Origin: Ignavibacteriota bacterium
GTDB lineage: Bacteria > Bacteroidota > Ignavibacteria > Tepidaquicellales > Tepidaquicellaceae
Assembly: GCA_026390735.1 (NCBI GenBank)
Contig: JAPLFJ010000069.1
Span: forward strand, 124,001 to 188,000
Direction: 5' to 3'
DNA length: 64,000 bases
Shown: positions 39,142 to 63,961 of the stretch, piece after piece
How positions within the stretch are numbered: position 1 is the stretch's first letter
How the letters are laid out: each line of letters begins with the position of its first letter
Made by a program: the position numbers and the translations under genes
The notes under the pieces: generated by a model
Told to the model about the DNA's origin: nothing
The model's database searches: none
What the model saw: only the letters and a program-made list of their open reading frames with translations

Positions 39142-40497
39142 ATGGCAAAGATAGATATTACGGAAAAGGTTGTTTCTCTTGCAAAGCGCAGAGGTTTTGT
39201 GTTTCAGTCGTCTGAAATTTACGGCGGATTAAACGGATGCTGGGACTACGGTCCACTCGGTGTAGAAATGCTCAACAACATAAAGCAGTCATGGTGGAAA
39301 GAAATGACCTACCGCGAAAACATCGAAGGTATCGATGCTGCTATTCTTATGCATCCCCGCGTTTGGGAAGCATCCGGACACGTTGAGAATTTCACAGATC
39401 CAATGGTAGATTGCAAAGAGTGCAAAGGACGCTTCCGTGCTGACCAGCTTGAAGAAACAGACTGCGGCAACAAGGGTTACAAAGGACGCAAGGCTATCAA
39501 GTGCCATCAGGAAGGCAAGTTTACAGAGGCAAGAAATTTTAATTTAATGTTTAAGACATTCGTAGGTCCGCTCGAAGATTCTTCAAACGTTGTTTACCTG
39601 CGTCCCGAAACGGCACAGGGAATTTACGTGAACTTCCTGAACGTGAAGGAAGCATCGAGGCAGAAACTTCCGTTCGGAATTGCGCAAATCGGCAAGGCAT
39701 TCAGGAATGAAATCAACACAAAGAACTTTCTTTTCCGAACACGCGAGTTCGAACAGATGGAAATGCAGTTCTTTATCCGTCCTGATGAAGATGAAAAGTG
39801 GTTTGAATACTGGAAGGAACAGCGTGTTAACTGGTTTATTAAAAACGGAATCCCGAAAGAAAAGCTTAACATACACGTACACGAAAAACTTGCGCACTAT
39901 GCAAAAGCAGCAGTCGATATTGAATACGAATTCCCGTTTGGCTTCGGTGAGATAGAAGGCATTCATAACAGAACTGATTTCGATTTAAAGCGTCATACAG
40001 AATACTCAGGAAAGAAACTCGAATACTTCGACGACCAGACCAAGGAACGTTTCACACCATTCGTGATTGAAACCTCTGCTGGTGCATCAAGAAGTTTTAT
40101 GGCATTCCTTTTAAACTCGTACGATGAAGAAGAAGTAGTAAAGGAAAATTCAGACGGCACAAAGTCGACAGAAGTCCGCACAGTGCTTCATCTGCATCCA
40201 TCATTCGCACCAATCAAGGCAGCAGTATTTCCACTGGTTAACCGCGACGGAATGCAGGACATAGCCGCAAACATCACAGAAGACTTAAGAAATTATATGA
40301 GAGTATTCTACGACGATTCAGGTGCAGTTGGCAGAAGGTACCGTCGTCAGGACGAATGCGGAACACCTTATTGCATAACTGTAGATTCCGAAACATTGAC
40401 GAATAACACAGTCACAATCCGCGACCGCGACACTATGGCACAGGAAAGAATCAACAAGGATAATCTTGTAGAGTTTATATTGAAGAAGATAAAATAA
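39142..40497 (+). CDS. glyS: Glycyl-tRNA synthetase (single-chain type)
   Basis: A 451-residue class II synthetase of the alpha2 type. FVFQSSEIYGGLNGCWDYGPLG is split by length but begins near residue 20; LRPETAQGIYVNF and FRTREFEQMEMQFF are the class II motif regions, and VIETSAGASRSFMAFL is motif 3. A Cys-pair insertion (CKECKGRF...CHQEGKF) may bind zinc. The C-terminal anticodon domain follows (LHPSFAPIKAAVFPL). The terminator at 40517 ends the transcript. Confidence 0.95.
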   Translation: MAKIDITEKVVSLAKRRGFVFQSSEIYGGLNGCWDYGPLGVEMLNNIKQSWWKEMTYRENIEGIDAAILMHPRVWEASGHVENFTDPMVDCKECKGRFRADQLEETDCGNKGYKGRKAIKCHQEGKFTEARNFNLMFKTFVGPLEDSSNVVYLRPETAQGIYVNFLNVKEASRQKLPFGIAQIGKAFRNEINTKNFLFRTREFEQMEMQFFIRPDEDEKWFEYWKEQRVNWFIKNGIPKEKLNIHVHEKLAHYAKAAVDIEYEFPFGFGEIEGIHNRTDFDLKRHTEYSGKKLEYFDDQTKERFTPFVIETSAGASRSFMAFLLNSYDEEEVVKENSDGTKSTEVRTVLHLHPSFAPIKAAVFPLVNRDGMQDIAANITEDLRNYMRVFYDDSGAVGRRYRRQDECGTPYCITVDSETLTNNTVTIRDRDTMAQERINKDNLVEFILKKIK

Positions 40498-49320: not shown

Positions 49321-50544
49321 ATGGAGCACATGGTTCACAGCGAATCGGACAAGTACAAAAACGATTTGCTTGATGCATTTAAGAAAAAATTCGAGGGGAG
49401 ACTCAGCGATGAAGACCTTGCTTTCATAACAAGTTCATACGACAGGTATATGTTCGAAATGATAAAGCTTATGAGGGAAGGGAAATCTGCGCATGAGAAG
49501 TTCTTTGCTGACATTATCTTAAACTCCATAGATGCGATAGTCGGTTTTAACAATGAAGGTGAAATCTTTCTATGGAATAAAGGGGCAGAGAAAATATTCG
49601 GCTGGGAGAAAAGCGAAATAACAGGTAAGAATTTTAATGTTCTAATTCCGAAAGATATACTCTCTTCAGGCGAAGTTAATAAAATGCTCGCAAAGGTAAA
49701 AGAACAAGGATTCATTTCAAACCACGAAACACTCCGCATTACAAAAACCGGCGAATTAATAAACGTTAGTATATCGAGGTTTGTTATTTTTAATGAAAAG
49801 GGCGAGGATATAGGCAGTGTAGGTATTATCAGGGATATTACGACTGAGAAAAGGCTCGAAAAAGTACTACGCGAAAGAGAAAACCTTGCTCTTATAGGAG
49901 AAGTTGTATCGAGTATTGCACATAATCTTTCAAACCCGTTAAACATAATTTCAGGCAATGCCGATTATTTGTTGCTGGAGAAAAAAGAGGGCGACCCTGA
50001 TTATGAAGAACTGAAGGTTATCGTCGCAGAAGCGACACGCATAACTAAATCTATAAGGTCAATATTGAATTTTGCCAAGCCTCTTATTCCGATGCTTGAA
50101 AGTGTGAGCATAAATGAGCTGCTTGAAGAAGCAACAAGCGGGTTTAAGTTTTTAAAGGGGAATAAAAATGTGGAACTCAGCAAAAAGTTCGACAATAAGG
50201 TCCCGTCAATTAAAGTTGACAAAGAATTAGTAAAAGATGTTTTCTTAAATATAATCAGTAATGCAATCCAGGCTATTCCTTTAAACGTTAAAGGTTTGGT
50301 TGAAGTGAAAACTGTTTTCGACGGCAAGAAAATTATAACTGAGATTTCCGATAACGGTTCTGGCATTTCTCAGAAAGACTTACCGAATATTTTTAAACCA
50401 TTCTATACAACGAAAGGTTATGGAAAAGGAACCGGGCTCGGGCTGGCATTTGCAGACAGGGTAATCAAAGAACATAAAGGTTCGATTGAAGTTAAATCCG
50501 AACAAAACTCCGGCACATCGTTCATAATTTCAATATCTGTATAA
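49321..50544 (+). CDS. PAS-domain sensor histidine kinase
   Basis: A 407-residue cytoplasmic kinase without transmembrane helices. A PAS domain spans about residues 62-180 (NSIDAIVGFNNEGEIFLWN, GKNFNVLIP, SVGIIRDITTEK). The HisKA helix holds His201 in SSIAHNLSNPLN, and the ATPase domain has NIISNAIQAIP, DNGSGIS and GTGLGLAF. It probably phosphorylates the NtrC-type regulator encoded 101 nt downstream. What the PAS domain senses is unknown; there is no haem-binding signature I can see. Confidence 0.9.
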   Translation: MEHMVHSESDKYKNDLLDAFKKKFEGRLSDEDLAFITSSYDRYMFEMIKLMREGKSAHEKFFADIILNSIDAIVGFNNEGEIFLWNKGAEKIFGWEKSEITGKNFNVLIPKDILSSGEVNKMLAKVKEQGFISNHETLRITKTGELINVSISRFVIFNEKGEDIGSVGIIRDITTEKRLEKVLRERENLALIGEVVSSIAHNLSNPLNIISGNADYLLLEKKEGDPDYEELKVIVAEATRITKSIRSILNFAKPLIPMLESVSINELLEEATSGFKFLKGNKNVELSKKFDNKVPSIKVDKELVKDVFLNIISNAIQAIPLNVKGLVEVKTVFDGKKIITEISDNGSGISQKDLPNIFKPFYTTKGYGKGTGLGLAFADRVIKEHKGSIEVKSEQNSGTSFIISISV

Positions 50545-50645
50545 ATTTTCCTCTTTTTTGGTACAAAATAGAAACCGAAACTTTCATCATTATTGTGTGG
50601 AAATTTTCCCTAAAAGTACTTATTTTCCTTTAAATTTAAAACTTA

Positions 50646-51995
50646 ATGGCAGAAATTATAAAAGCGCTGGTTGTCGATGACGAACCGAATCAATCAAATC
50701 TAATCCGCAAAGTCCTTATAAAGAAGGGTTTAGACGTAACAGAGGAAAACGATAGTGCCGTAGCAAAAGAACTTATAAAAAGTAATTTTTATGATTTAAT
50801 AGTATCCGACTTACAAATGCCCGAGGTCTCGGGTATGGACCTGCTTACAATCACACCGAAAGAAACACTGTTTATTATGATTACGGGTTTCGGTTCTGTT
50901 TTATCTGCGGTTGATTCAATGAAAAACGGTGCTTATGATTACGTCAATAAGCCATTCAACCTTGATGAGTTTATTCTGAAGATTGAAAAAGCCATTGAGA
51001 AAATTAACATCACAAAAGAGTTATACAGTTTTAAGAATTTAGTAACGGATAAAGAGCCCTATCTGGGAATAATAGGAACAAGCAAAAGAATGATGGAGGT
51101 TTATGATTTTATAGATAAGACTTCCAAGATAAACGTTAATGTTCTGGTTCAGGGACAGAGCGGCACAGGGAAAGAATTAGTTGCAAGAGCATTGCATTTC
51201 AGCAGTGACAGAAAAGATCATCCGTTTGTTGCGATTAACTGCAGTGCAATACCTGAGAACCTGCTTGAAAGCGAATTGTTCGGACATACAAAAGGCGCAT
51301 TCACGGGTGCAATCGAAAACCAGAAAGGTGTTTTTGAACAGGCTAACAACGGAACGTTATTTCTTGATGAAATAGCCGAAATGCCTTATCAGTTGCAAGC
51401 TAAGCTCCTGCGCGTACTTGAAAACTGGGAATTTAAACCTATAGGAAGTGACAAGATAAAAACAGTTGACGTCAGATTAATCTCCGCAACAAATCAGAAC
51501 ATACAGGAAATGATCAGCAATAAACTTTTCAGGGAAGACCTTTTCTACAGAATCTCAACAATCTCTTTGAATCTTCCAACATTGAACGACAGGATATCTG
51601 ATATTCCAGCGCTAACTAATCACATACTTAAAAATATTTCTAAAAAGTTCGGTAAAGAAATTAAGATAGCGCCAGACGCCATTACACTTTTAACCAAGCA
51701 TAACTACAAAGGAAACGTAAGGGAACTTGAAAACATTCTTGAGCAGGCGGCGGTTTCTGCTACAAACAACAAGATTGAAGTAAAGAATCTTACAATCAGT
51801 GAAGATAAAACTTTCCTCGATGATTGTCTTGCAAATACAGATGGAATGAGTTTAAAAGATCTTGAAAGGAAGTATATACTAAAAGTTCTTGAAACAACAA
51901 ATGGCAACAAGAAGAAAGCTGCAGAGAAATTAGGGATAGACAGAAAGACGCTTTATAACAAATTAGCGGAGTTTGGCCTACTTATAAAAGAGTAA
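50646..51995 (+). CDS. NtrC-family sigma-54-dependent response regulator
   Basis: A 449-residue regulator: receiver domain (1-120, phospho-acceptor Asp55 in LIVSDLQMP), AAA+ domain (about 140-375) with [25 protein letters not shown] (the sigma-54-contact loop), [13 protein letters not shown] and FREDLFYRI, and a Fis-type helix-turn-helix at 410-449. It should activate promoters read by RNA polymerase with sigma-54. A matching promoter lies 170 nt downstream, in front of the cytochrome cluster. It shares the operon with the histidine kinase. Confidence 0.94.
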
Positions 51996-52166
51996 TTATT
52001 CCACACGACAAGTCCAATATATCTACACATATTTTTGCTATATTTGAGGAAGTTCTTAACCCCTGAATTAAGGTAAAAAGTTTACACGAAAAACTCTAAA
52101 AAGCCCCATATTTCTACATGTTTAATATTATTTTCCGCATATCCTACGTTTAAATCAAACATTCTT

Positions 52167-52182
52167 TGGTATAGTAATTGCA
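52167..52182 (+). promoter_or_regulatory. Sigma-54 (RpoN) promoter
   Basis: TGGTATAGTAATTGCA: GG and GC are in the places and spacing of the -24/-12 consensus (TGGCACG-N4-TTGCA), and the -12 part TTGCA is perfect. It lies 31 nt before the start of the receiver-like gene and 172 nt after the NtrC-type activator. Candidate activator sites upstream include an inverted repeat CTTAA...TTAAG (52055-52072), which I cannot confirm. Confidence 0.75.
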
Positions 52183-52213
52183 GTAATATTTGTAATTTCT
52201 ATTAATAAAAACT

Positions 52214-52603
52214 TTGAAATTTAGAATTAAAATATTTTGTCTAATTCCTGAAATTTGTGCACTTATTCAAAAAGTACTCGCAAAGTACGACTATGAGTTC
52301 AAATGTGTAAACACCATTAATGAGTTTCTGAAGAAATCGGAAGACGAGATTATCGATGAATGCGAGAATTCTGCTGACATTGTGATACTGGATCAGGAAC
52401 TGGACAAGGATTTTAAGTTAAAGCTGATAAAGAGGTTTGAAAGAATAGATTTTATATGTTTGCCTTCTCTGGATGAAAGCGATACCATTACGGAAAGCCC
52501 GGCAAACGTAAAACGTATTTCAGAACCTTTCAAATTAAGTGAATTTGAAGAGGTGTTATTACAAATAATCAAAAATAAATCAGAGTCAGATGTTAAAAAG
52601 TAA
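52214..52603 (+). CDS. Degenerate receiver-domain protein
   Basis: A 129-residue protein starting at TTG (no ATG fits). It looks like a CheY-type receiver: hydrophobic strand IKIFCL, IVILDQEL with the Asp in the phospho-acceptor place, and RISEPFKLSEFEEVL where receivers have KPF. The usual acidic pair after strand 1 is missing (LIPE) and the Lys before PF is Glu. It probably does not accept phosphate in the normal way. It overlaps the 19-haem cytochrome gene by 14 nt and is the first gene after the sigma-54 promoter. I cannot name the family. Confidence 0.6.
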   Translation: MKFRIKIFCLIPEICALIQKVLAKYDYEFKCVNTINEFLKKSEDEIIDECENSADIVILDQELDKDFKLKLIKRFERIDFICLPSLDESDTITESPANVKRISEPFKLSEFEEVLLQIIKNKSESDVKK

Positions 52604-54476
52604 AATAGCGGCATTAATATTATTGTTTGTATTTGTATTGGTTACAGGAGTCGTTGTTTTTAAGTTTAATTTAATCAGAGCAAGGGGTTCAGACGAATGT
52701 TTTGCCTGTCACGAGGACAAAACACTTGCAATGGATGTTAACGGCAAAAAGAAATCAATTTTTGTCGACCCTGTTCTTTTCAAAAATTCCACCCATAGTG
52801 CGTTTGACTGTAAGGATTGTCACGAGGGTTACAACCCTGACGAATTTCCTCATAACCCCAAGAAGGTTAAAATTAATTGCAGAGGGTGTCACGAAAAAGC
52901 AAAGAGTTTGGAAAACGGAGTTCATAAAAACAACGACTGTGCAGACTGCCATAACCCGCATAATCAGAAACCCGCAAAGGAAATGAAGGCAAATCAAACT
53001 GCCACATGCCTGAAATGTCATACAAACAGAAATGTTACGGATTACAATACGAGTATTCACGCAAAGAAAAATGTCGGTTGCGATGGCTGTCACAAAAGCG
53101 GTCACGATGCGAAGAAAATAACAAAGGGGGAAGTAGTACAGGTTTGCGGAAACTGTCATGGTTCTCATCAGAAGGACTTTAACAACAGTATTCATCAAAC
53201 CGTTATGAAGGGCGGAAATAAAAATACACCTACCTGTATTGATTGTCACGGTTCTCATAAAATCGTAGGGAATAAAATGTCAATTGAATCTATTGCGTGT
53301 CTGAAATGCCACCTTGACGAAAAATTATTCCCGGGAGACCAGAAAGGTTCTGCAAAATTTGTAGCGAAGTACAAAACAAGTATTCATTCCTCAATACAAA
53401 TAGACGGTAAACAGGCGGCAGGGTGTGTTGATTGCCACGGTAACCATATGATTGAATCCACAAACGACCCTACAAAATCTACTGTCAGAGCACGTATGAT
53501 GGAAACATGCGGAAAATGTCACACAAAAGAAATCGATCATTATTACAAATCTTCTCACGGGCAGGCTTATAAAAACGGAGATAATAATGCTCCAACCTGT
53601 TTCCAGTGCCATGGTGAGCATGGAATTAATTCAGTATTGCGATCAGACGATTTTTCAAAGATAAATCAGACTGAAATGTGTTTGTCGTGCCATCAGGATA
53701 ACAGGGTTAATAAAAACAAGGAAACACACCTAAACGACTATAAAAAGAGTTTTCATTACATAGCTTTGCAAAACGGAAACACTAAAGCGGCTACATGCAG
53801 TAATTGTCACGGACCTCATGAAATGAAACCGGCATCAGATCCTGAATCACAAATTTATAAAAAGAATGTAGATGGAACCTGTGGTCAAATCGGGTGCCAT
53901 GAACAGGAGAAAAAAGATTATTCAGGAAGTATTCATCACACGACTTTAATGTCTAAAGAAAACTCTGATTCTCCTACCTGTAACAGTTGTCACGGAGCAC
54001 ATCAGGTTGTTAACACTGATTCACTAGGAAAAGACCAGGGATCAAAACAAAAGGGTATCGTTAAATTATGTTCGAACTGTCACGCCTCTGTCGAGTTAGT
54101 GCGTAACAATAATTTACCTAATGTAGCCTCAAACTATAATGAAAGTTTTCACGGTCTGGCAGTCAGAGGTGGTTCAAACAAGGCTGCTTCCTGCGGAAGT
54201 TGTCATGGTAATCATAATATCCGACCATCAACCGATTCATTATCAACCATAAACAAGAAGAATCTTGGTCAGACTTGCGGTAAGTGTCATCCGGGTGCTG
54301 ATAATGTATTCCTGAACACAAAAATGCATATTCTTAAAGCAGAAACAGATAATCCAATGCTGTTCTGGATTACCAGATTTTATATACTCATGATTATTGG
54401 TGTTATTGGAGGAATGGTGTTGCATAATATTTTAGATTATCGCAGAAAATTAAAAGAGAAAAAGGCGGGACAATAG
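52590..54476 (+). CDS. 19-haem c-type cytochrome, membrane-anchored
   Basis: 628 residues with an N-terminal helix (7-27) and a C-terminal helix (about 590-612), so probably anchored with the haem domain in the periplasm. I count 18 CXXCH motifs (from CFACH to CGKCH) plus one CX4CH, CGQIGCH at nt 53880-53900. Repeats of the form SIH/SFH...C..CHG.H suggest internal duplication. The following gene, 2 nt away, encodes a di-haem cytochrome b, so the pair looks like a quinol:cytochrome c oxidoreductase of the bc type used in metal-respiring bacteria. Acceptor unknown. Confidence 0.88.
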   Translation: MLKSKIAALILLFVFVLVTGVVVFKFNLIRARGSDECFACHEDKTLAMDVNGKKKSIFVDPVLFKNSTHSAFDCKDCHEGYNPDEFPHNPKKVKINCRGCHEKAKSLENGVHKNNDCADCHNPHNQKPAKEMKANQTATCLKCHTNRNVTDYNTSIHAKKNVGCDGCHKSGHDAKKITKGEVVQVCGNCHGSHQKDFNNSIHQTVMKGGNKNTPTCIDCHGSHKIVGNKMSIESIACLKCHLDEKLFPGDQKGSAKFVAKYKTSIHSSIQIDGKQAAGCVDCHGNHMIESTNDPTKSTVRARMMETCGKCHTKEIDHYYKSSHGQAYKNGDNNAPTCFQCHGEHGINSVLRSDDFSKINQTEMCLSCHQDNRVNKNKETHLNDYKKSFHYIALQNGNTKAATCSNCHGPHEMKPASDPESQIYKKNVDGTCGQIGCHEQEKKDYSGSIHHTTLMSKENSDSPTCNSCHGAHQVVNTDSLGKDQGSKQKGIVKLCSNCHASVELVRNNNLPNVASNYNESFHGLAVRGGSNKAASCGSCHGNHNIRPSTDSLSTINKKNLGQTCGKCHPGADNVFLNTKMHILKAETDNPMLFWITRFYILMIIGVIGGMVLHNILDYRRKLKEKKAGQ

Positions 54477-54478
54477 TA

Positions 54479-55177
54479 ATGGCATCAGAAGAAAAATATT
54501 TAAGAATGACTTTGAATGAGAGAATCCAGCATTTTCTGCTTCTCTCTACTTTTATGACTTTGGTATTTACGGGATTTGCTTTAAAATATCCGGAAGCTTT
54601 CTGGGTTAAATGGACAATGTTTTTTATCGGCAAAAACGCTTTTGAATTAAGAGGAGTAGTACACAGAGTAGCGGCAGTATTGATGACTGGCGCTTCTGTA
54701 TATCATTTATTCTATATAATTTTTACAAGGCGCGGCAGAAAATTAGTAGCCGACCTTTGGTTCTACAAAAAAGACTTAACCGATTTATTTCAGTCCATAG
54801 GTTATATAACAGGCAAGAAGGACGAAAGACCAAAACTCGGAAGGTTCAGTTACATAGAAAAAGCAGAATACTGGGCAGTGGTCTGGGGAACGTTTGTAAT
54901 GGGTGCAACGGGAAGTCTGTTGTGGTTTCAGAATTACTTCCTTCCGATTATAAATGTTTACGGAATGGATATAGCGACTGCAGTCCACTGGTACGAAGCA
55001 ATATTGGCGTCACTTGCAATTCTGGTCTGGCACTTTTACTTTATTTTCATGAACCCTGATGTTGCACCTATGAATAAAGCCTGGTTTACAGGCTATCTGA
55101 CGCGGCACCAGATGGAAAATGAACATCCGCTGGAACTGGAAGAAATTGAGGCCCGGCAGCATAAAGAAAAGCTGTAG
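54479..55177 (+). CDS. Di-haem cytochrome b (formate dehydrogenase gamma-like)
   Basis: 232 residues, four transmembrane helices. Likely haem-ligand histidines are His18 (RIQHFLLLS) in helix 1, His62 and His76 in helix 2 (RGVVHRVAA, SVYHLFYI), and the two in TAVHWYEA and VWHFYFIF in helix 4. This pattern fits the FdnI/HybB-like cytochrome b561 fold, which takes electrons from quinol to haem c. It lies 2 nt after the 19-haem cytochrome. Confidence 0.85.
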   Translation: MASEEKYLRMTLNERIQHFLLLSTFMTLVFTGFALKYPEAFWVKWTMFFIGKNAFELRGVVHRVAAVLMTGASVYHLFYIIFTRRGRKLVADLWFYKKDLTDLFQSIGYITGKKDERPKLGRFSYIEKAEYWAVVWGTFVMGATGSLLWFQNYFLPIINVYGMDIATAVHWYEAILASLAILVWHFYFIFMNPDVAPMNKAWFTGYLTRHQMENEHPLELEEIEARQHKEKL

Positions 55178-55258: not shown

Positions 55259-57286
55259 ATGGATGAAGAAAAGAAAACCAAGAAAAGAAGATTGTTTAAA
55301 ACTGTAACAGGTTTTAGGAGATTTCTATTGTTTTCGGGAATATATTTTGTACTTTTTGTTATCATACTTGCGGCTACAGCCGAATATACTTCACGTCCGA
55401 GTTTTTGCCCGACCTGCCATTATATGGAGCCTTTTTATAACAGCTGGAAGTCTTCCTCGCATAATAAGATTCAGTGTGTGCAATGTCACTTTGAACCAGG
55501 GCTTGAAGGAAAGATAAAAGGAAAATTAAACGGGCTGGTTCAGATTGTCAGTTATGTGTCCACTTCATACAAGAAAAGAAAACCATGGGCCGATATACCT
55601 GATAACACATGTTCAAGAGAGGGTTGTCACGTAAATCAGTCTATACAGGATACGTTATACGAAACAAAAGGTGTGTCGTTTAATCACAAACATCACTTAT
55701 CTGAACTGAGGAGGGGCAAAAAATTAAAGTGTACAAGCTGTCACTCTCAGATTGTTCAGGGGTCTCATATGCAGGTAACTTATTCAACCTGCTTTAACTG
55801 CCACTTTCATAAATCAGATGACCCGGAACACAAATATGACAAGTTGTCGGATTGCCAGACCTGTCATAAACTAAAGAGCAAAACACAGGAACAGTTAGCA
55901 TCGATGAAGTATAATCATACTGTTGTTGTGAAAAATGATATGAACTGTTCGAGTTGTCACGTTAATGTAGTTTCAGGAAAAGGAGAAGTAGGCAAAGAGA
56001 GGTGTTTCCAGTGTCATTTTGAGGACAATAAAATAGACAAGTATAATGACATAGAATTCATGCATACGACGCATATTTCAAAGCACAGCATGAACTGTAT
56101 GTATTGCCATACTCCGATAAAGCATAAGATTGAAAAAATGGATGCCAATGCTCCGCCTGATTGTCAGAGCTGCCATACAGGAGCACACACTTATCAGGTA
56201 AGTCTGTTTGCAGGTGAAAACGGAAATAACACAGAAAACTTACCAAGTTCAATGTATGTAAGCGGAATAAACTGTAAAGGTTGTCACGTTCTGCACGAGA
56301 TTGATAAAAGGGACATTAACACTTCAAAGGCAAGCAAGAATGCCTGTGATCAGTGTCACGGAGAAGGTTATGGGAAATTAATTAAACAATGGGAAAACTC
56401 TTCAATTAAAAGACTTGCAACAATTAAGTCGATTTATGCTGTTGCAAAGAATATTGTAAGTTCATCCGGAAGTAACAGAAAAAATGAGGCATTGCTGAAA
56501 CTTGACGAAGCTTATCACAACATTAAAATTGTTGATATAGGGAAGAGTGTTCATAACATTCAGTTTGCCGATAAACTTCTTATCGGAAGTTATGGTATTA
56601 TGAATGAGGCGTTGAAAATGGTAGGTTCTACCAAAACGTTACCTGAGTTTAAGTCAAACTCAGAATTTGTTCCGAACGAATGTTATAATTGCCATGCGGG
56701 AATCCAGGAAGCAGACACAAAAGCATTCGGAAAACCTTTTTCACATAAAGGGCATATTGTAAAACAAAGATTACAGTGCAACAAATGTCATTCAAATGAC
56801 AACAAGCACGGACAGTTAATTATCACGCAATCAAGTTGTAACAATTGTCATCATAATAATGCTAAAACGAGTGAGTCCTGTAACGATTGTCACAAGATTC
56901 AATCGCAAACATTCAACGGTACACTGAACGGTAAAAACCAGCCTGATATAATGAAAGAGGGTGGAACGAAGTGTAATGATTGCCATCTGTCTTCATCTGT
57001 AATCGTTAAACCTGACTCCAAAATCTGTTCAAAATGTCATGACGCAGGATACAGCAACACAATGGCAGACTGGAAGAAAGATGTTACATCGCTGGTAAAG
57101 GAAGCCGATAATTTAATAAATGATGTAAAGAGCAAGGAGTTAAGCGAAGAAAACAAAACCGTAATAAATGAAACACGTAAGTTAATTAATATGGTTAATT
57201 CCAACCCAAGTCTTTATGTACATAATAACGAGTTGATAAGTTCTTTGTTATCTGAAAAAATAAAACTATTAAAGAAAATGAAGTAG
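55259..57286 (+). CDS. 18-haem cytochrome with NapC/NirT-like N-terminus
   Basis: 675 residues. One N-terminal transmembrane helix (about 21-42) precedes CPTCHYMEPFYNSW and CVQCHFEPG, the beginning of a NapC/NirT/NrfH-type domain that oxidises quinol. I count 17 CXXCH motifs and one CX4CH (CSREGCH, nt 55610-55630). A haem-free helical stretch at about residues 380-465 divides twelve haem sites from the last six, and another haem-free tail ends the protein. It is a fusion of a quinol dehydrogenase head with a long multihaem wire. Confidence 0.85.
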   Translation: MDEEKKTKKRRLFKTVTGFRRFLLFSGIYFVLFVIILAATAEYTSRPSFCPTCHYMEPFYNSWKSSSHNKIQCVQCHFEPGLEGKIKGKLNGLVQIVSYVSTSYKKRKPWADIPDNTCSREGCHVNQSIQDTLYETKGVSFNHKHHLSELRRGKKLKCTSCHSQIVQGSHMQVTYSTCFNCHFHKSDDPEHKYDKLSDCQTCHKLKSKTQEQLASMKYNHTVVVKNDMNCSSCHVNVVSGKGEVGKERCFQCHFEDNKIDKYNDIEFMHTTHISKHSMNCMYCHTPIKHKIEKMDANAPPDCQSCHTGAHTYQVSLFAGENGNNTENLPSSMYVSGINCKGCHVLHEIDKRDINTSKASKNACDQCHGEGYGKLIKQWENSSIKRLATIKSIYAVAKNIVSSSGSNRKNEALLKLDEAYHNIKIVDIGKSVHNIQFADKLLIGSYGIMNEALKMVGSTKTLPEFKSNSEFVPNECYNCHAGIQEADTKAFGKPFSHKGHIVKQRLQCNKCHSNDNKHGQLIITQSSCNNCHHNNAKTSESCNDCHKIQSQTFNGTLNGKNQPDIMKEGGTKCNDCHLSSSVIVKPDSKICSKCHDAGYSNTMADWKKDVTSLVKEADNLINDVKSKELSEENKTVINETRKLINMVNSNPSLYVHNNELISSLLSEKIKLLKKMK

Positions 57287-57325: not shown

Positions 57326-58597
57326 ATGAGAGACAGAAAACATATAGTAACGATTTTTTCCTTAATTGTATTCGTTATTATTATTGGCGTGATAGCCCGG
57401 TTGATTTTAAAACCGGATTCTTTCGGCGAGCACGGTCAATACAGATGGAATGCAGTTTCTGAATTACAAAAACAGGAAATTGTGAACCAGAATATCAGTA
57501 CCTGCGCGAAATGTCATGATGATATTTATCAGTTGCATGAAAAAGATGCTCATTTTAGTGTCCCTTGTGTTGATTGCCATGGTGCAGGTAATTTACATGT
57601 ACTTTTTCATGAAGGGGGAGACAGCGCAAAACAAATTACAAAAGAACAGGCAGCTCTTCCAAAAGAATACAAACTTGAGGGTTGTCTTTTTTGTCACAAG
57701 AAATTAAAAGCAAGACCTTCGGATTTTCCGCAGATTAATCAGGAAGATCATTATAAGTTTCTTAATGTTCCTGACCTGAAGACTAAATGTATTGAATGCC
57801 ATAGTCCTCATCAGCCTGTATTCATGCTGACCGCAGTCAGGGAAGCAAGAATACACCCTATTGTTTACAGATGTACTGAGTGCCACGATAAAAAACCCGA
57901 GCAGAGCTTTAAGGAAGTTGCAGGCCACCCTGCAATATTTGAATGCAACGACTGTCATCCAAAGATAGTAAAGAGTTTTAATGAACGTCCGCACCATAAA
58001 TACATTGAATGCAGAACGTGTCACCTTTATCACAAAGAAAATGAAACAACCGGCAGAATATATAAGAATGGAAACGCAAGATTCTGTTTGCTTTGTCACG
58101 AAAAGAAACCATTCAAGGATGAAAATTATCCGCCTAAAATTGAATGGCCTTCTCACGTCGGAAATTCTAATATAATAACGAAAAGTGACGAAAAAATTTG
58201 TCTGAATTGTCATGCTGACAGAATTCACGATATGGATGTGAAGATAAGGGCAAACCCACATTCAAGTGACTGGGTCTCAACACACAAAAATTTTGCAAAG
58301 GTGCAATTAACCGTATGTCAGGGTTGTCACACAAGTAACGACTGTTCTTCGTGTCACTCAAAAACAAAACCTGTTTCTCATAATCAGAACTGGAGAAAGC
58401 AGCATCCGTCTTTTGGAGCGAAAAACCAATCAACCTGTGAGATGTGTCACAAAAAAGACGCGTGTATGAATTGTCATAAGTTGTCGATGCCGCATCCCAA
58501 AGGATTTGAGGATAACCACAAAGAAGTGGCTACACAAAAAGGTAAAGCGGTGTGTATGAACTGCCACAAAGAGGAATTTTGTAAACAATGCCATTAA
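57326..58597 (+). CDS. 15-haem c-type cytochrome, membrane-anchored
   Basis: 423 residues with an uncleaved N-terminal helix (about 7-28). I count 15 CXXCH motifs, from CAKCH near residue 54 to CKQCH, which forms the last five residues. Haems 10-15 are crowded into the last 100 residues. The next two genes encode an NrfC-like iron-sulfur protein and an NrfD-like quinol subunit, so this may be their electron acceptor, as NrfB or cytochrome c is in related complexes. Confidence 0.87.
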   Translation: MRDRKHIVTIFSLIVFVIIIGVIARLILKPDSFGEHGQYRWNAVSELQKQEIVNQNISTCAKCHDDIYQLHEKDAHFSVPCVDCHGAGNLHVLFHEGGDSAKQITKEQAALPKEYKLEGCLFCHKKLKARPSDFPQINQEDHYKFLNVPDLKTKCIECHSPHQPVFMLTAVREARIHPIVYRCTECHDKKPEQSFKEVAGHPAIFECNDCHPKIVKSFNERPHHKYIECRTCHLYHKENETTGRIYKNGNARFCLLCHEKKPFKDENYPPKIEWPSHVGNSNIITKSDEKICLNCHADRIHDMDVKIRANPHSSDWVSTHKNFAKVQLTVCQGCHTSNDCSSCHSKTKPVSHNQNWRKQHPSFGAKNQSTCEMCHKKDACMNCHKLSMPHPKGFEDNHKEVATQKGKAVCMNCHKEEFCKQCH

Positions 58598-58617: not shown

Positions 58618-59376
58618 ATGGAAAAAATAGAAAGACGTCAATTTATTAAGTTAGGATTATTCAGCACTGCAGGAATTCTGGTTGGTTCGTTTTTTGCATT
58701 TGCGAAAACCGAAAAAGACATTGAAGTAAACAGTTATGAAGACTTGCTGAAATTCGACTGGGGTTATATTGTTGACACAACAAGATGCATCGGATGTGGT
58801 TCGTGCGTCCGCGCCTGTAAAGTTGAGAACGAAGTCCCTGAGGGATATTTCAGGACTTGGGTTGAAAGGTTTGAAATAACAAAAGATGAAACAGTATACG
58901 TAGATTCTCCAAAAGGTGCTATAGAAGGATTTAACAGGGATAATGCGCAAACCGCAGAAATTGTAAAAGCATTTTTTGTTCCTAAATTGTGTAATCACTG
59001 CTACGACGCCCCTTGTATACAGGTTTGTCCTGTCGGCGCATCTTATCGTTCTCCTGATAAAGTTGTTCTGGTTGACAAAGAACATTGTGTGGGTTGTGGT
59101 TATTGTGTACAGGCCTGTCCATACGGCGTCAGGTATATAAATGAAGAAAAGGGAGTAGCCGATAAATGTACTTTGTGTTATCACAGAATACAAAAAGGAT
59201 TAGCCCCTGCATGTGTAAATTCCTGTCCGAGAAATGCAAGGATATACGGTAATCTTAAAGATCCGAACAGTGAAATAAATAAGGTTCTCCATCAACGAAG
59301 GTATGGACTTCTGAAACCTGACCTGGGAACCAATCCAAAATGTTTCTATATTGGTTTAGATAAGGAGGTAAAATAA
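58618..59376 (+). CDS. NrfC/DmsB-like 4x[4Fe-4S] protein with Tat signal
   Basis: 252 residues. The twin-arginine signal is ERRQFIKLG followed by a hydrophobic stretch, so the folded protein is exported and probably stays anchored. Four cysteine groups fit four [4Fe-4S] clusters: CIGCGSCVRAC, CNHCYDAPCIQVCP, CVGCGYCVQACP and CTLCYHRIQ...CVNSCP. It passes electrons between the NrfD-like subunit encoded next and a cytochrome. Its last codons contain a perfect AAGGAGGT ribosome site for the next gene. Confidence 0.92.
   Translation: MEKIERRQFIKLGLFSTAGILVGSFFAFAKTEKDIEVNSYEDLLKFDWGYIVDTTRCIGCGSCVRACKVENEVPEGYFRTWVERFEITKDETVYVDSPKGAIEGFNRDNAQTAEIVKAFFVPKLCNHCYDAPCIQVCPVGASYRSPDKVVLVDKEHCVGCGYCVQACPYGVRYINEEKGVADKCTLCYHRIQKGLAPACVNSCPRNARIYGNLKDPNSEINKVLHQRRYGLLKPDLGTNPKCFYIGLDKEVK
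59362..59369 (+). promoter_or_regulatory. Perfect Shine-Dalgarno sequence
   Basis: AAGGAGGT, 6 nt before the ATG at 59376. It stands out because most genes in this window show no such sequence. It lies inside the end of the iron-sulfur gene, so it should raise NrfD synthesis in step. Confidence 0.75.
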
Positions 59377-60533
59377 TGGATACTCTAAGTAATTATATTT
59401 TCCCAAATGAATTTCATATTACCTGGACAGTTATGATTGTTTTATACCCGTACATAACAGGTATGGTCGCGGGCGCTTTTATAGTCTCATCTTTTTACCA
59501 TGTGTTTAATATGGAGAAACTTAAAACAGTGGCCAGATTTGCACTCGTATCATCATTGGCATTCCTGCTCTTTGCCACGGTTCCTCTTTTAAACCATCTG
59601 GGCCGACCAGAGCGTGCGTTCTATATTATGATGACTCCAAATTTCAGTTCAGCTATGAGCGGGTTCGGTTTTATTTATTCATTTTATATGATAATCGTTG
59701 TTCTGGAAATCTGGCTGAGTTATCGTGTTGAGATTATCGATAAATATAATAAATCCAATGGAATTGTAAAATTTATATACCTCGTTGTTTTATTGGGGAA
59801 CGCGAATGACAATGAAAACACAAGAAGGTTTGATAAACGATTAGTTATTGCATTAGCAAGTTTTGGAATACCCGTTGCTTGTATTCTGCACGGATATGTA
59901 GGTTTCCTTTTCGGTTCTATTAAGGCAAACCCATGGTGGTCAACACCTCTTATGTTTATAATATTTATTTTTTCTGCCATCGTTTCAGGCTTAGCGGTTT
60001 TGATATTTTTATATCAGTTTGTTCATTGGATGAGAAAAAGGAGTATAGACCAGGACTGCCTTGATTTAATGGCAAAATGGCTTTGGGGTTTTATGATAAT
60101 TGCAGTTACACTAGAACTTATGGAAGTTCTGTCAATTTCTTATGAAAACACAGAAAGATGGGCTATACTCAGACAATTAATAGACGGCAAACTAAAATTA
60201 TCTTACGTCTACTTGCAGATCGGACTGTTTTCTATTGTCCCATTTATTATGCTTACAATTACGTCTCTGTCTAAAATGAAAAACACTAAAGTGAAAAATC
60301 TTACAATATGGATTGCTTCGGTAATGCTGTTATTACAGGTTTTGTTTATGCGCTGGAATGTTGTTATTGGCGGACAATTGGTTTCTAAAAGTATGCGTGG
60401 GTTTACTGAATATTTTCCGGGATTGTGGGATAAAGAAGGACTTATTGTATCCTTCCTTATAATTTTAGTACCTTTTGTTTTATTGTATTTATTCGATAAG
60501 GTATTTCCGTTTTTCGGTGAGAAAAGCCATTAA
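59376..60533 (+). CDS. NrfD/PsrC-like quinol-interacting membrane subunit
   Basis: 385 residues with about nine or ten transmembrane helices. FATVPLLNHLGRPERAFYIM is a typical NrfD segment (split near residues 66-85) and LNHLGRPER is the most diagnostic. It should bind quinol and pass electrons to the iron-sulfur partner, whose stop codon overlaps its ATG by one base. The pair plus the 15-haem cytochrome resembles the NrfCD-type module of Cbc and alternative complex III families, without the molybdoenzyme subunit. Confidence 0.9.
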   Translation: MDTLSNYIFPNEFHITWTVMIVLYPYITGMVAGAFIVSSFYHVFNMEKLKTVARFALVSSLAFLLFATVPLLNHLGRPERAFYIMMTPNFSSAMSGFGFIYSFYMIIVVLEIWLSYRVEIIDKYNKSNGIVKFIYLVVLLGNANDNENTRRFDKRLVIALASFGIPVACILHGYVGFLFGSIKANPWWSTPLMFIIFIFSAIVSGLAVLIFLYQFVHWMRKRSIDQDCLDLMAKWLWGFMIIAVTLELMEVLSISYENTERWAILRQLIDGKLKLSYVYLQIGLFSIVPFIMLTITSLSKMKNTKVKNLTIWIASVMLLLQVLFMRWNVVIGGQLVSKSMRGFTEYFPGLWDKEGLIVSFLIILVPFVLLYLFDKVFPFFGEKSH

Positions 60534-60710: not shown

Positions 60711-61259
60711 ATGAAAAAGAAAATTTTCATCACTGTTAGTCTGACGTTATTCGTGGGAATGTTTTTGTTCTCATTTTCTGTTATTCCAACAGATAACGCA
60801 GGTCAGAACAAGTATGTTGGTGTCAGCAAATGTGGTCCTTGCCACAAGTCTGAGTCAGCCGGAAAACAACTTAGTATCTGGCAGGATTCCAAACATGCAA
60901 ATGCCTGGAAAACTTTAGAATCACCTGAAGCAGATAAAATTGCCAAGGATAAAGGATTCGGAAAAGCCAGTGAAACACCAGCATGTATCAAATGTCACGT
61001 TCTCGGAAAAGACCTTGACCCGTCTGAGTTTGCCGAAACATTCGACAAAACACAGGGTGTACAATGTGAAACTTGTCACGGTGCAGGTTCCGAATACAAG
61101 TCAACCATGAAAGACAAAGCAAAAGCCATCGAAAACGGATTAATCGTTGGTGCAGGTGAAACATTATGCACAGGCTGTCACAATTCTGAAAGTCCTTCAT
61201 TCAAAGGATTCAAGTATGATGAAATGTGGGCAAAAATTAAACATTCAAAAGGTAATTAA
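60711..61259 (+). CDS. Exported tetrahaem cytochrome (c554-like)
   Basis: 182 residues with a cleavable signal peptide (about residues 1-24). Four CXXCH motifs: CGPCH, CIKCH, CETCH and CTGCH. The KYVGVSKCGPCHKSE opening, the SKHANAWKTL segment and VQCETCHGAGSEY are typical of the cytochrome c554 family of small periplasmic electron carriers. It has its own 177-nt upstream gap and a terminator, so it may be made in larger amounts than its neighbours. It could shuttle electrons to the outer membrane. Confidence 0.87.
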   Translation: MKKKIFITVSLTLFVGMFLFSFSVIPTDNAGQNKYVGVSKCGPCHKSESAGKQLSIWQDSKHANAWKTLESPEADKIAKDKGFGKASETPACIKCHVLGKDLDPSEFAETFDKTQGVQCETCHGAGSEYKSTMKDKAKAIENGLIVGAGETLCTGCHNSESPSFKGFKYDEMWAKIKHSKGN

Positions 61260-61270
61260 TTGTTCTTAAT

Positions 61271-61308
61271 ATGAAGGTCATATATTTAATATGACCTTCA
61301 TTTTTTTA
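61271..61308 (+). terminator. Rho-independent terminator
   Basis: A perfect 13-bp stem ATGAAGGTCATAT (61271-61283) with its complement (61289-61301), then seven T. It may separate the tetrahaem gene from the porin gene or only lower read-through. Confidence 0.9.
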
Positions 61309-61346: not shown

Positions 61347-62672
61347 ATGAGGAAATTAATACTAGTTACGTTTATTTTGTTCTTTGCATTTCTTGCTTCG
61401 GGATATTCCCAGTCGTTAAATTTACGGTTAAACAGTTCTTTTTATACATGGAAAAGACTTGATGCCGTTCCCGAAACCTTAAAAAGTGCAACTTACACAA
61501 CGCATCTTACCGGTTATCAGAATATGGCTTTTGATCTTAATTTTGGTAAATGGACTTTTAGCACGTCCTTACAAACCGACGAAGATGTAATTAACAGAAA
61601 TGGGAGAGGTTTTTCTTACAGGTTTTACGATGCTTTTCTAAAAGGAAGTAATCTGTTTAATGTACTCGATTTGAAACTTGGCAGGCAATATGTCTCTGCA
61701 GGTTCCGGTAAAGGTACTATTGACGGAGCTCATTTTAAGTTAAAACTTGGAGAGAAAAAAGAGTATCAGATTATAGGATACGGTGGTTATCTTACACCGC
61801 TTGCCTATGATTTTGACAAGGAAGGTTACAAGAAAAAGTTATCTGAAAACTTTCTTGCAGGCGGACAGTTTCTTTATTACGGAATAAAGGACTTATATGC
61901 AGGATTGAGTTATGCCAACAAAAACCGGGCAATGGAACCATATTGGACTACACGTGCTGACTCAGTATTTAATCCTATGGATTATTATGTACAACCTGAG
62001 TCACAAGCTAATCAGTCGGCAGGTCTTGACCTTACATACAGATTAGCAAAAAGACATAACCTTTATGGAAAATTGTACTATGACTTTAATCAGAAAAGAA
62101 TTTTCAAAGGTGAATTCAACGGTTCTTTTGCTTTAAACGACAAAATTAAATTGTCAGTCGGTTATGATTATAAAGAACCGCAGTTAAGTGTTAATACTGT
62201 GTTCTGGGTTTTCAATTACCAGAAATATCAGGAAATACAGGGCGGCCTTGATTATTTAACGAAATTTATGGGAACCAACATTAATATATACGGAAGATTT
62301 GGCGGTGTTATTTACGACAAAGACAATTCATTGAAATTCCAGCTGGGCGTTTCCAGTTCTTCTTATGGGTTAGGTATAACAAAATATACAGGTTATTCCG
62401 GCGAGTCAGAAGGCGCTTTTGCGTATTTTAATCACGACATTGTTAAATCCTTCCTGGCTTTAACATCAAGTTTAAACTATTCAAGGTATAATCTCGGAAA
62501 CAGTAACAGCGATAAGGTAAATGTATTCGGTGGAACACTTGGTCTGACATACAGACCTGTAAGCCGTTTTTCAATCGACGCCCAGGGTCAGTTAATGACA
62601 AATGAAATTTATAAAACCGATACAAGATTCCTGATAGGATTCAATTACTGGCTCTTTAGCAATTTTAATTAA
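61347..62672 (+). CDS. Outer-membrane beta-barrel, possible porin of a cytochrome conduit
   Basis: 441 residues with a signal peptide (cut near YSQS, residue 22). The remainder alternates short amphipathic strands and ends in FLIGFNYWLFSNFN, with many aromatic residues, as in outer-membrane barrels; I estimate 16-20 strands. There is no CXXCH. It sits between a tetrahaem and a 14-haem cytochrome, the arrangement of porin-cytochrome complexes (MtrB- or OmbB-like role). The sequence does not resemble MtrB by eye, so the role rests on context. Confidence 0.7.
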   Translation: MRKLILVTFILFFAFLASGYSQSLNLRLNSSFYTWKRLDAVPETLKSATYTTHLTGYQNMAFDLNFGKWTFSTSLQTDEDVINRNGRGFSYRFYDAFLKGSNLFNVLDLKLGRQYVSAGSGKGTIDGAHFKLKLGEKKEYQIIGYGGYLTPLAYDFDKEGYKKKLSENFLAGGQFLYYGIKDLYAGLSYANKNRAMEPYWTTRADSVFNPMDYYVQPESQANQSAGLDLTYRLAKRHNLYGKLYYDFNQKRIFKGEFNGSFALNDKIKLSVGYDYKEPQLSVNTVFWVFNYQKYQEIQGGLDYLTKFMGTNINIYGRFGGVIYDKDNSLKFQLGVSSSSYGLGITKYTGYSGESEGAFAYFNHDIVKSFLALTSSLNYSRYNLGNSNSDKVNVFGGTLGLTYRPVSRFSIDAQGQLMTNEIYKTDTRFLIGFNYWLFSNFN

Positions 62673-62692
62673 TAACATAAGCATAATATATT

Positions 62693-63961
62693 ATGAGTTT
62701 AAAAAAGTTTTATATAGTATTTTTAAGTAGTGCAATATTGTTTGTATCGCTCACTGCTTATGTTTCCAAAAATAAGAGTTTAACAAATATTTTCGGTAAA
62801 TCGGAAGTTGTTAATGTGAGTATTGTAAGCAATAAAGATGTGATTAAATTTGATCACCAGTTCCATCTGTCAAAGGATGTCGGACTTGCCTGTAAGGATT
62901 GTCATAAAGGAGCTTTAGAGTCAAACAAGGTTTCTGATAACCTTAATCCTAAAATGGCTGACTGTTCAAGTTGTCACGACATAAAAGATAAGAAGAACTG
63001 TAAACAGTGTCACTACGACGGTGTTTATAAAGACTTTGCACCGGTGAAAAAAGAGATATTGTTCTCTCACAAAAAGCACGTCGGTCAGAAAATTGAATGT
63101 GCTCAGTGTCATACGGGTTTTGACAAAGTGAAATATTCATCCGACGCAGTTAACGGTGGTTTCCCGAATATGGAAAACTGCTACACATGTCATAACGGTA
63201 CAAAACAGGTTAATAATTGTGAGGCGTGTCATACAAACCTGACAAACCTTAAACCAAAAGACCATTTAAATTCAAATTATCTGAATGAGCATAAATTAGT
63301 GTACGATGTTGCTACAGGCAATAACAACAGCAACTGTATGATGTGTCATTCAGGTAACTTCTGTGAGAACTGTCACCAGCCGGCAAAATACAAAGGTGAA
63401 AATACAAAGGGTAATTTCTATGCACCTTATTACACCAAGGATTTTGCCACAAGAACAGACAGGGCTTCTTTACAGAAACTTACTACTGTTCATGACCTGA
63501 ATTATCAGTTTACACATGGATTAGATGCCAGACAAAAAAGTTTTGAATGTAAAACCTGTCACGACCCTATCGATTTCTGCGCGTCCTGTCACCAGAACGG
63601 TGGAAACCTTCCAACAGGCCTGATGCCGAAGAATCACTACCTTACAAACTTCAAAACATTTGGAGTAAATTCGGGTGGCGGTTTGCATGCAGACCTGGCG
63701 AAGAGAGATATGGAGTCATGTGAGGCCTGTCATAGTGTTAACGGTGCCGACCCTACCTGCGTTAAGTGTCATTTTGACAACGACGGTATAAAGGGTACAA
63801 ACCCAAAAACACACGAATCAGGATTTATGAAAGACACTCATGGAAGTTGGCATAATACAAAAGGGGCGGTATGTTATACGTGCCATACTGATCCTACGGC
63901 AAGACCGGACGGAAATTCCGGTGTTGGTTTCTGCGGTTACTGTCACGGCAAAAAAAAGTAA
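62693..63961 (+). CDS. 14-haem c-type cytochrome, exported
   Basis: 422 residues with an N-terminal hydrophobic segment (about 5-24) that may be a signal peptide or anchor; no lipobox. I count 14 CXXCH motifs, from CKDCH to CGYCH at the very end. FDHQFHL and FSHKKHV before haem groups supply distal histidines, as in c3/c7-type repeats. It starts 20 nt after the barrel gene and is a candidate for the haem wire inside or beside that barrel. Confidence 0.87.
   Translation: MSLKKFYIVFLSSAILFVSLTAYVSKNKSLTNIFGKSEVVNVSIVSNKDVIKFDHQFHLSKDVGLACKDCHKGALESNKVSDNLNPKMADCSSCHDIKDKKNCKQCHYDGVYKDFAPVKKEILFSHKKHVGQKIECAQCHTGFDKVKYSSDAVNGGFPNMENCYTCHNGTKQVNNCEACHTNLTNLKPKDHLNSNYLNEHKLVYDVATGNNNSNCMMCHSGNFCENCHQPAKYKGENTKGNFYAPYYTKDFATRTDRASLQKLTTVHDLNYQFTHGLDARQKSFECKTCHDPIDFCASCHQNGGNLPTGLMPKNHYLTNFKTFGVNSGGGLHADLAKRDMESCEACHSVNGADPTCVKCHFDNDGIKGTNPKTHESGFMKDTHGSWHNTKGAVCYTCHTDPTARPDGNSGVGFCGYCHGKKK

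Follow-up and report, generated by a model that had tools for sequence, protein, structure and literature searches.

The window, the whole 64,000-nucleotide stretch of DNA that was analysed, carries genes for a sensor kinase and an NtrC-family activator (EBP), followed on the same strand by a receiver-like gene and a series of cytochrome genes:

49321–50544, + strand: PAS-HisKA-HATPase sensor kinase, 407 aa (Pfam), with H201 in HNxxNP
50646–51995, + strand: NtrC-family EBP, 449 aa, with receiver, AAA+ and Fis-type HTH
52214–52603, + strand: 129-aa degenerate receiver protein, whose gene opens the operon and starts with TTG
52590–54476, + strand: 18-haem c-type cytochrome, 628 aa (Pfam)
54479–55177, + strand: b-type cytochrome (Ni_hydr_CYTB), 232 aa (Pfam)
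55259–57286, + strand: 17-haem cytochrome with a NapC/NirT-type N-terminus (Pfam)
57326–58597, + strand: 15-haem cytochrome (Pfam)
58618–59376, + strand: 4Fe-4S ferredoxin subunit (Pfam)
59376–60533, + strand: NrfD-type membrane subunit (Pfam)
60711–61259, + strand: 4-haem cytochrome c554-type protein (Pfam)
61271–61301, + strand: terminator-like hairpin, 13 pairs and a T run, between the c554-type and porin-like genes
61347–62672, + strand: putative outer-membrane barrel protein, 441 aa, named from position and composition
62693–63961, + strand: 14-haem cytochrome (NCBIfam and haem-motif reading)

A preliminary description of this DNA had placed a sigma-54 promoter at 52167–52182, between an activator gene and the cytochrome cluster and directly in front of the latter. 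The site does lie between the EBP gene (50646–51995) and the cluster, but the gene that comes first is that of the receiver-like protein (52214–52603), not a cytochrome; it overlaps the 18-haem cytochrome gene, which starts at 52590, by 14 bases. Homologs of its product were found in 30 of 59 genomes (this one and 29 of 58 relatives). All 30 belong to the two families of a single order, and 15 genomes from elsewhere in the class had none. The protein has no Pfam match and, in NCBIfam, a sub-threshold match to DcuR alone; its predicted structure (model pLDDT 80.1) has the receiver fold, and its best PDB matches are receiver domains (2b4a, TM 0.71/0.78). The phosphorylatable Asp60 is invariant. 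A complete receiver active site is lacking: strand 1 carries no acidic pair, and the sequence reads SEP where the KP motif with its Lys would stand. We suggest that the 52214 product may tune the same sigma-54/EBP circuit.

Relatives of the b-type cytochrome in Gemmatimonadota, Verrucomicrobia and Acidobacteria (loci among L121–L165) are often fused to a multihaem domain, forming proteins of ~700–770 aa with 13 CXXCH motifs.

The hairpin at 61271–61301 may split or attenuate the operon, reducing or ending transcription before the last two genes. A strong hairpin with a T run at this point would suit an arrangement in which the promoter serves only the receiver gene and the cytochrome genes that come first, while the porin-like and 14-haem genes form a separate unit, as would locus L101, where the 18-haem/b cytochrome pair is on one strand and the genes for the porin and the 14-haem cytochrome are on the other. 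Against a separate unit, 22 of 29 relatives' loci have the porin gene behind the genes for the 18-haem and b cytochromes and in the same orientation, most of the other seven being ended by contig ends. We regard the separate unit as a serious possibility, though one that we are inclined to doubt. The barrel-like protein encoded at 61347 has no NCBIfam match.

The activator, its probable kinase and candidate binding sites

The 50646 product carries SDLQMP at residue 54, KPF at 102 and GAFTGA at 217, and matches the Pfam families Sigma54_activat (3e-70), Response_reg (3.6e-20) and HTH_8 (5.3e-16); it thus combines the GAFTGA-bearing AAA+ domain, Fis-type HTH and receiver of an NtrC-family EBP. 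Among the best 25 of 109 NCBIfam families its scores fall below the equivalog cut-offs, the highest being AtoC (390.8 bits against 714) and NtrC (388 against 558.6). In 23 of 29 relatives' loci an EBP homolog precedes the receiver gene, with other genes intervening in some, and the loci without one are mostly ended by contig ends, apart from that of G013, where promoter and palindrome are present and no EBP was seen upstream at the locus.

The kinase encoded at 49321 has no membrane segment evident at its N-terminus and looks cytosolic, as judged from its sequence. It has a homolog in 12 of 29 relatives' loci, adjoining the EBP in G004 and G012 and separated from it elsewhere. The adjacency of activator, kinase and promoter that the preliminary description emphasized holds in this genome, and does not extend to relatives in which the kinase is apart from the activator or unseen near it; for the same reason, we infer the pairing of kinase and activator rather than read it from gene order. 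The earlier claim had also been made to depend on rpoN, and it survived: the genome has one copy, and the gene is present in 59 of 59 genomes.

The sites that might bind the activator are as follows:

50596–50612, + strand: candidate activator site TGTGGAAATTTTCCCTA, 34–50 bases before the EBP start
51989–52005, + strand: AGAGTAATTATTCCACA, the second candidate enhancer site, which lies 22 bases before AGTCCAATATATCTACA and overlaps the EBP stop codon
52011–52027, + strand: candidate enhancer site AGTCCAATATATCTACA, with right half-site TCTACA, in a block invariant in 5/5 species of the genus

Upstream of the -24 element, a palindrome, TGTRGA-N5-TCYACA, occurs in 21 of 29 loci, where 0.0 were expected. 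Its distance is fixed within clades: in f2 it is -63, or in one case -62 (10 of 11 loci); in g1, -53/-54 (two species); in g8, -65; in g10, -84; in g13, -85/-86; in g2, -92; and in g9, -96. Across 12 whole genomes the palindrome was found at 14 places, nine of them at the cytochrome-operon promoter, compared with seven places for the reversed pattern, our control for genome counts and an imperfect one, with base order altered; in six of the 12 genomes it occurs solely at that promoter. G030 has a second copy inside a 378-aa frame. A second perfect palindrome also lies at G016:C81:40973-40989 (in L063), ~1.9 kb upstream of the one at the promoter.

In its strict form the palindrome is absent from this genome (G000), G002 and G004, and in this species the candidate enhancer sites are degenerate in the left half. 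What the genus has is a distal pair of right half-sites, here TTCCACA and TCTACA, 22 bases apart and kept in 5/5 species. Scored with a matrix built from the relatives' palindromes, AGTCCAATATATCTACA ranks 7th in the window and AGAGTAATTATTCCACA 17th, the latter with TTCYACA invariant in 5/5 species of the genus. The best match of the whole 64 kb, by the matrix learned from other loci, is TGTGGAAATTTTCCCTA, and similar sites stand at -50 to -56 before the EBP in G004, G002, G001, G011 and G023; we think that the EBP gene may well be autoregulated through this site. We take the conserved upstream sites to be candidate binding sites of the 50646 product. The second best match in the window, TGTAGAAATGCTCAACA at 39261–39277, is one mismatch from the activator palindrome.

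Because this genome has 34 strong sigma-54-type sites, it probably encodes other EBPs, and one of these could be the activator of a sigma-54-dependent promoter at 52167–52182, with the 50646 product controlling something else. The window's best palindrome-like site precedes 50646 itself rather than the operon, and the G013 promoter persists without a neighbouring EBP, both of which would agree with such an arrangement. It is nonetheless improbable, since EBP, promoter and palindrome co-occur throughout the order and the palindrome is found almost solely at the cytochrome-operon promoter.

The promoter element and its conservation

Two further features complete the control region:

52167–52182, + strand: sigma-54 promoter TGGTATAGTAATTGCA, with -24 TGG at 52167–52169 and -12 TTGCA at 52178–52182
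52193, + strand: predicted +1, from standard sigma-54 spacing with C52181 as -12

Direct reading bore out the coordinates, the exact -24/-12 spacing and the TTGCA ascribed to TGGTATAGTAATTGCA in the preliminary description: GG at 52168–52169 and GC at 52180–52181 are ten bases apart, and TTGCA is intact. The element matches the sigma-54 context TGGCACG-N4-TTGC[AT], with TGGTAT instead of TGGCAC at -24 and TTGCA at -12. The same arithmetic puts the predicted start at 52193, in agreement with the one proposed earlier, if C52181 is -12. The predicted leader, from 52193 to the TTG at 52214, is 21 bases long, within a gap of 218 bases between the end of the EBP gene and that TTG.

Taken alone, TGGTATAGTAATTGCA is no better than chance, and the motif by itself is insufficient for recognition. 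TGGN9TGC occurs 15 times in the window where shuffles predict 16.3, TGGN8TTGCA three times where 1.9 are expected, and TGGTAYRN4TTGNW 23 times genome-wide compared with 17 for its reversed-pattern control.

We rate the element above chance because the same -24/-12 spacing is kept upstream of the orthologous gene. Thirty loci were oriented, of which 29 have readable upstream DNA (L021 ends with its contig 23 bases upstream); TGG[CT]A-N6-TTG stands upstream of the orthologous first gene in all 29, from one Ignavibacteria order, where 0.19 loci would be expected by chance (dinucleotide shuffles of 200 bases), although the loci are related by descent and do not amount to 29 independent trials. Counted from a point four bases ahead of TGG, the protein match begins 41–75 bases on, except in G009, where the distance is 172. 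In an alignment of five species of the genus, the only two invariant intergenic blocks are the promoter and the distal tandem site, and the rest of the intergenic DNA aligns poorly even within the genus. Locus L091, a near relative in Ignavibacteria, is 93% identical in the b cytochrome. A search for TGG[CT]A[CT]N6TTG[ACT] ahead of the cytochrome genes found no match in 17 outgroup or rearranged loci without the receiver gene, L101 among them.

At six loci in KSB1, Kryptoniota and Bacteroidetes (L146, L152, L155, L166, L167 and L170), an EBP of 38–43% identity lies near a related cytochrome cluster that has no receiver gene and no recognised -24/-12 upstream. The EBP is on the same strand as the cluster in L152 and L155, and on the opposite strand, with a kinase, in L146, L166, L167 and L170.

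The motif could be accidental, and the operon could be driven from another point of the 218-base gap by a promoter of the primary sigma factor, but while sigma-54 motif counts equal chance and sigma-70-like matches are many, the latter too are at chance level (46 vs 44.1), and conservation in 29 of 29 orthologous loci against 0.19 expected, together with a five-species alignment that has no invariant block besides the distal site and -24/-12, makes this very improbable indeed.

A sigma-54 switch before the electron-transfer cluster is thus very probably real. The proposal that a sigma-54 promoter for the cytochrome cluster is driven by the adjacent NtrC-type activator gains support from footprinting across relatives, from rpoN, from the domains of the activator and from the candidate palindrome, and we hold with considerable confidence that 52167–52182 is a working sigma-54 promoter, driven by the 50646 product, for an operon that runs from 52214 into the multihaem cluster. 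Sequence comparison shows the promoter and its candidate enhancer sites, the activator gene, rpoN and the order of the genes. On the mechanism that we favour, RpoN-RNA polymerase would sit at 52167–52182 as a closed complex; a presumed signal would lead to phosphorylation of the 50646 product, probably by the PAS kinase encoded at 49321, and the phosphorylated protein would bind at ~51989–52027, 140–180 bases upstream of -24, whereupon its GAFTGA-bearing AAA+ ring would open the closed complex. Transcription would begin near the predicted start, might extend past 61271, and would yield, besides the degenerate receiver, a bc-type complex of the inner membrane and multihaem carriers, with perhaps a conduit through the outer membrane; we assign these roles from family names.

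Relation to known sigma-54 systems

In Geobacter, CbcBA is controlled by the NtrC-type regulator BccR. CbcBA of Geobacter sulfurreducens is described as induced when easily reduced acceptors are absent (PMC12307469). It resembles the present cluster in being a bc-type cytochrome pair, whereas phylum, gene content and gene order differ. The Geobacter RpoN regulon has been linked to extracellular-electron-transfer cytochromes, with the consensus TTGGCACGGTTTTTGCT, whose -12 element is TTGCT; the type of operon found here is not described in the part of that paper available to us (PMC2725144).

The nearest documented case is DVU3142–ohcBAC of Desulfovibrio, for which sigma-54/EBP control is a comparative prediction (PMC4641369). 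There too an EBP gene adjoins an operon, which encodes a multihaem c cytochrome together with FeS and b-haem membrane subunits, and the predicted sigma-54 promoter and EBP sites are kept in relatives (PMC4641369). DVU3142 is a one-component EBP, divergent from the genes of an octahaem complex (PMC4641369), whereas here the EBP is of the two-component type and co-directional; unlike ohcBAC, the present operon begins with a degenerate receiver gene and encodes 18-, 17-, 15- and 14-haem cytochromes.

In the Bacteroidetes, the sigma-54 motif SM4 of Flavobacterium psychrophilum stands before chaperone and exported-protein genes (PMC9723704). Sites of this genome likewise precede an Hsp20-like gene and genes for secreted-looking proteins, and the cytochrome operon found here has no counterpart in the available text of the SM4 account (PMC9723704). 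Among the literature matches listed, none joined Ignavibacteria with sigma-54, from which we claim no absence from print.

The type of circuit is known; what this order has throughout is a variant of it, headed by a degenerate receiver and with a relaxed -12. For a lineage represented mostly by metagenome assemblies, it provides a concrete multihaem-cytochrome circuit, with promoter, enhancer sites, activator and probable kinase placed at named bases, at which the switching of electron export in these bacteria can now be tested.

The -12 position in promoters, RpoN and activators

The "perfect TTGCA" of the preliminary description is correct for this genome's promoter, and it is no rule of the promoter family: the 29 orthologous promoters have TTGC in 10 and TTGT or TTGA in 19, so that the GC found at -13/-12 in the window is not kept throughout, and in f2 the sequence is TTGTA in 11/11. 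We considered that the relatives without TTGC had lost the promoter, as TGGN9TGC is present in 10 of 30, and rejected this, since their gaps hold the element with GT or GA. Nor do the TTGT and TTGA promoters look like products of decay, because TGGCACRN4TTGNW, with its strong -24, has 34 sites in this genome and its reversed pattern two. The promoter of an Hsp20-like gene varies between species in the same way, reading TTGAT in G000, TTGCT in G011 and TTGTA in G029 and G030.

Sorted by their -12 base, the 34 strong sites have A in 15, T in 10, C in nine and G in none; all 25 A/T sites and seven of the nine C sites are intergenic (genome G000, L171–L199). By comparison, 21 of 25 TGGN8TTGCW sites without TGGYA fall inside genes of this genome. 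With 25 TTGWW sites, this genome ranks first of 148 in the phylum, and the next has 15. In f24, a family of 30 genomes of the same phylum, an approximate hand tally gave ~102 TTGCW sites (control 16) and ~135 TTGWW sites (control 34); we had considered that freedom at -12 was confined to the order, and this tally hints that it may occur more widely. Ten genomes of other phyla had C in 23, T in nine, A in eight and G in six of 46 sites, a hand count unfiltered for intergenic position, which makes no sharp contrast with the C 9, A 15, T 10 and G 0 of 34 sites found here.

On the side of the sigma factor, the -24-reading box of RpoN, ARRTV[AT]KYRE, is intact in 20 of 21 genomes read, the pattern failing to capture that of G012. 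The helix-turn-helix (L001) reads MDISTVSR here and MHESTISR in PDB sigma-54. The position that E378 holds in E. coli/Klebsiella is occupied by I, V, T, P or S in this genome and in 19 of 20 relatives (L211–L229; G048 left out). E378 has been called highly conserved (PMC5505868), and genetics implicates it, together with L25, in recognition of the -12 GC, while the reading of the -12 fork junction by sigma-54 is described as unresolved in the part of that paper available to us (PMC4496707).

On the side of the activator, PspF with Y in place of F in its loop is reported to have no longer bound stably to DNA carrying a mismatch at -12/-11 (PMC5505868). The f2 EBPs have GAYTGA in 9/9 read (L096, L097, L099, L106, L111 and L115 included), one of them printed as GAYTG, and the f1 EBPs have GAFTGA in 15/15 read. 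As a general cause of the relaxed -12, the change of F to Y in GAFTGA was rejected, because the promoters of eight f1 species lack the GC although GAFTGA is present in each f1 EBP that was read. A weak -24 (TGGTAT) goes together with TTGC in one clade (FastTree, 18-haem and b cytochromes), and the link carries no statistical weight because it is confined to that clade.

The pieces from sigma factor, promoter and activator fit a joint drift. We put forward tentatively, with doubt only a little ahead of belief, that the RpoN of Ignavibacteria lost its strict reading of the -12 GC because E378 was replaced, so that C, A or T, and not G, would be accepted after TTG where the -24 is strong; at the cytochrome promoter the clade with a weak -24 has TTGCA and the TTGTA family has GAYTGA, and promoter, sigma and activator would have drifted together. 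The correspondence has its limits, in that f1 species with GAFTGA use TTGA or TTGT and E378 is replaced in TTGC species as well. If the relaxation is true, searches that demand TTGC would overlook a large part of the regulon (here 25 of the 34 strong sites), and the lineage would serve as a natural experiment in the reading of the -12 fork junction by sigma-54. Many of the strong sites lie 50–90 bases before genes whose products start like secreted proteins, and the TTG[A/T] sites of G000 suggest a large envelope-type sigma-54 regulon with a relaxed -12.
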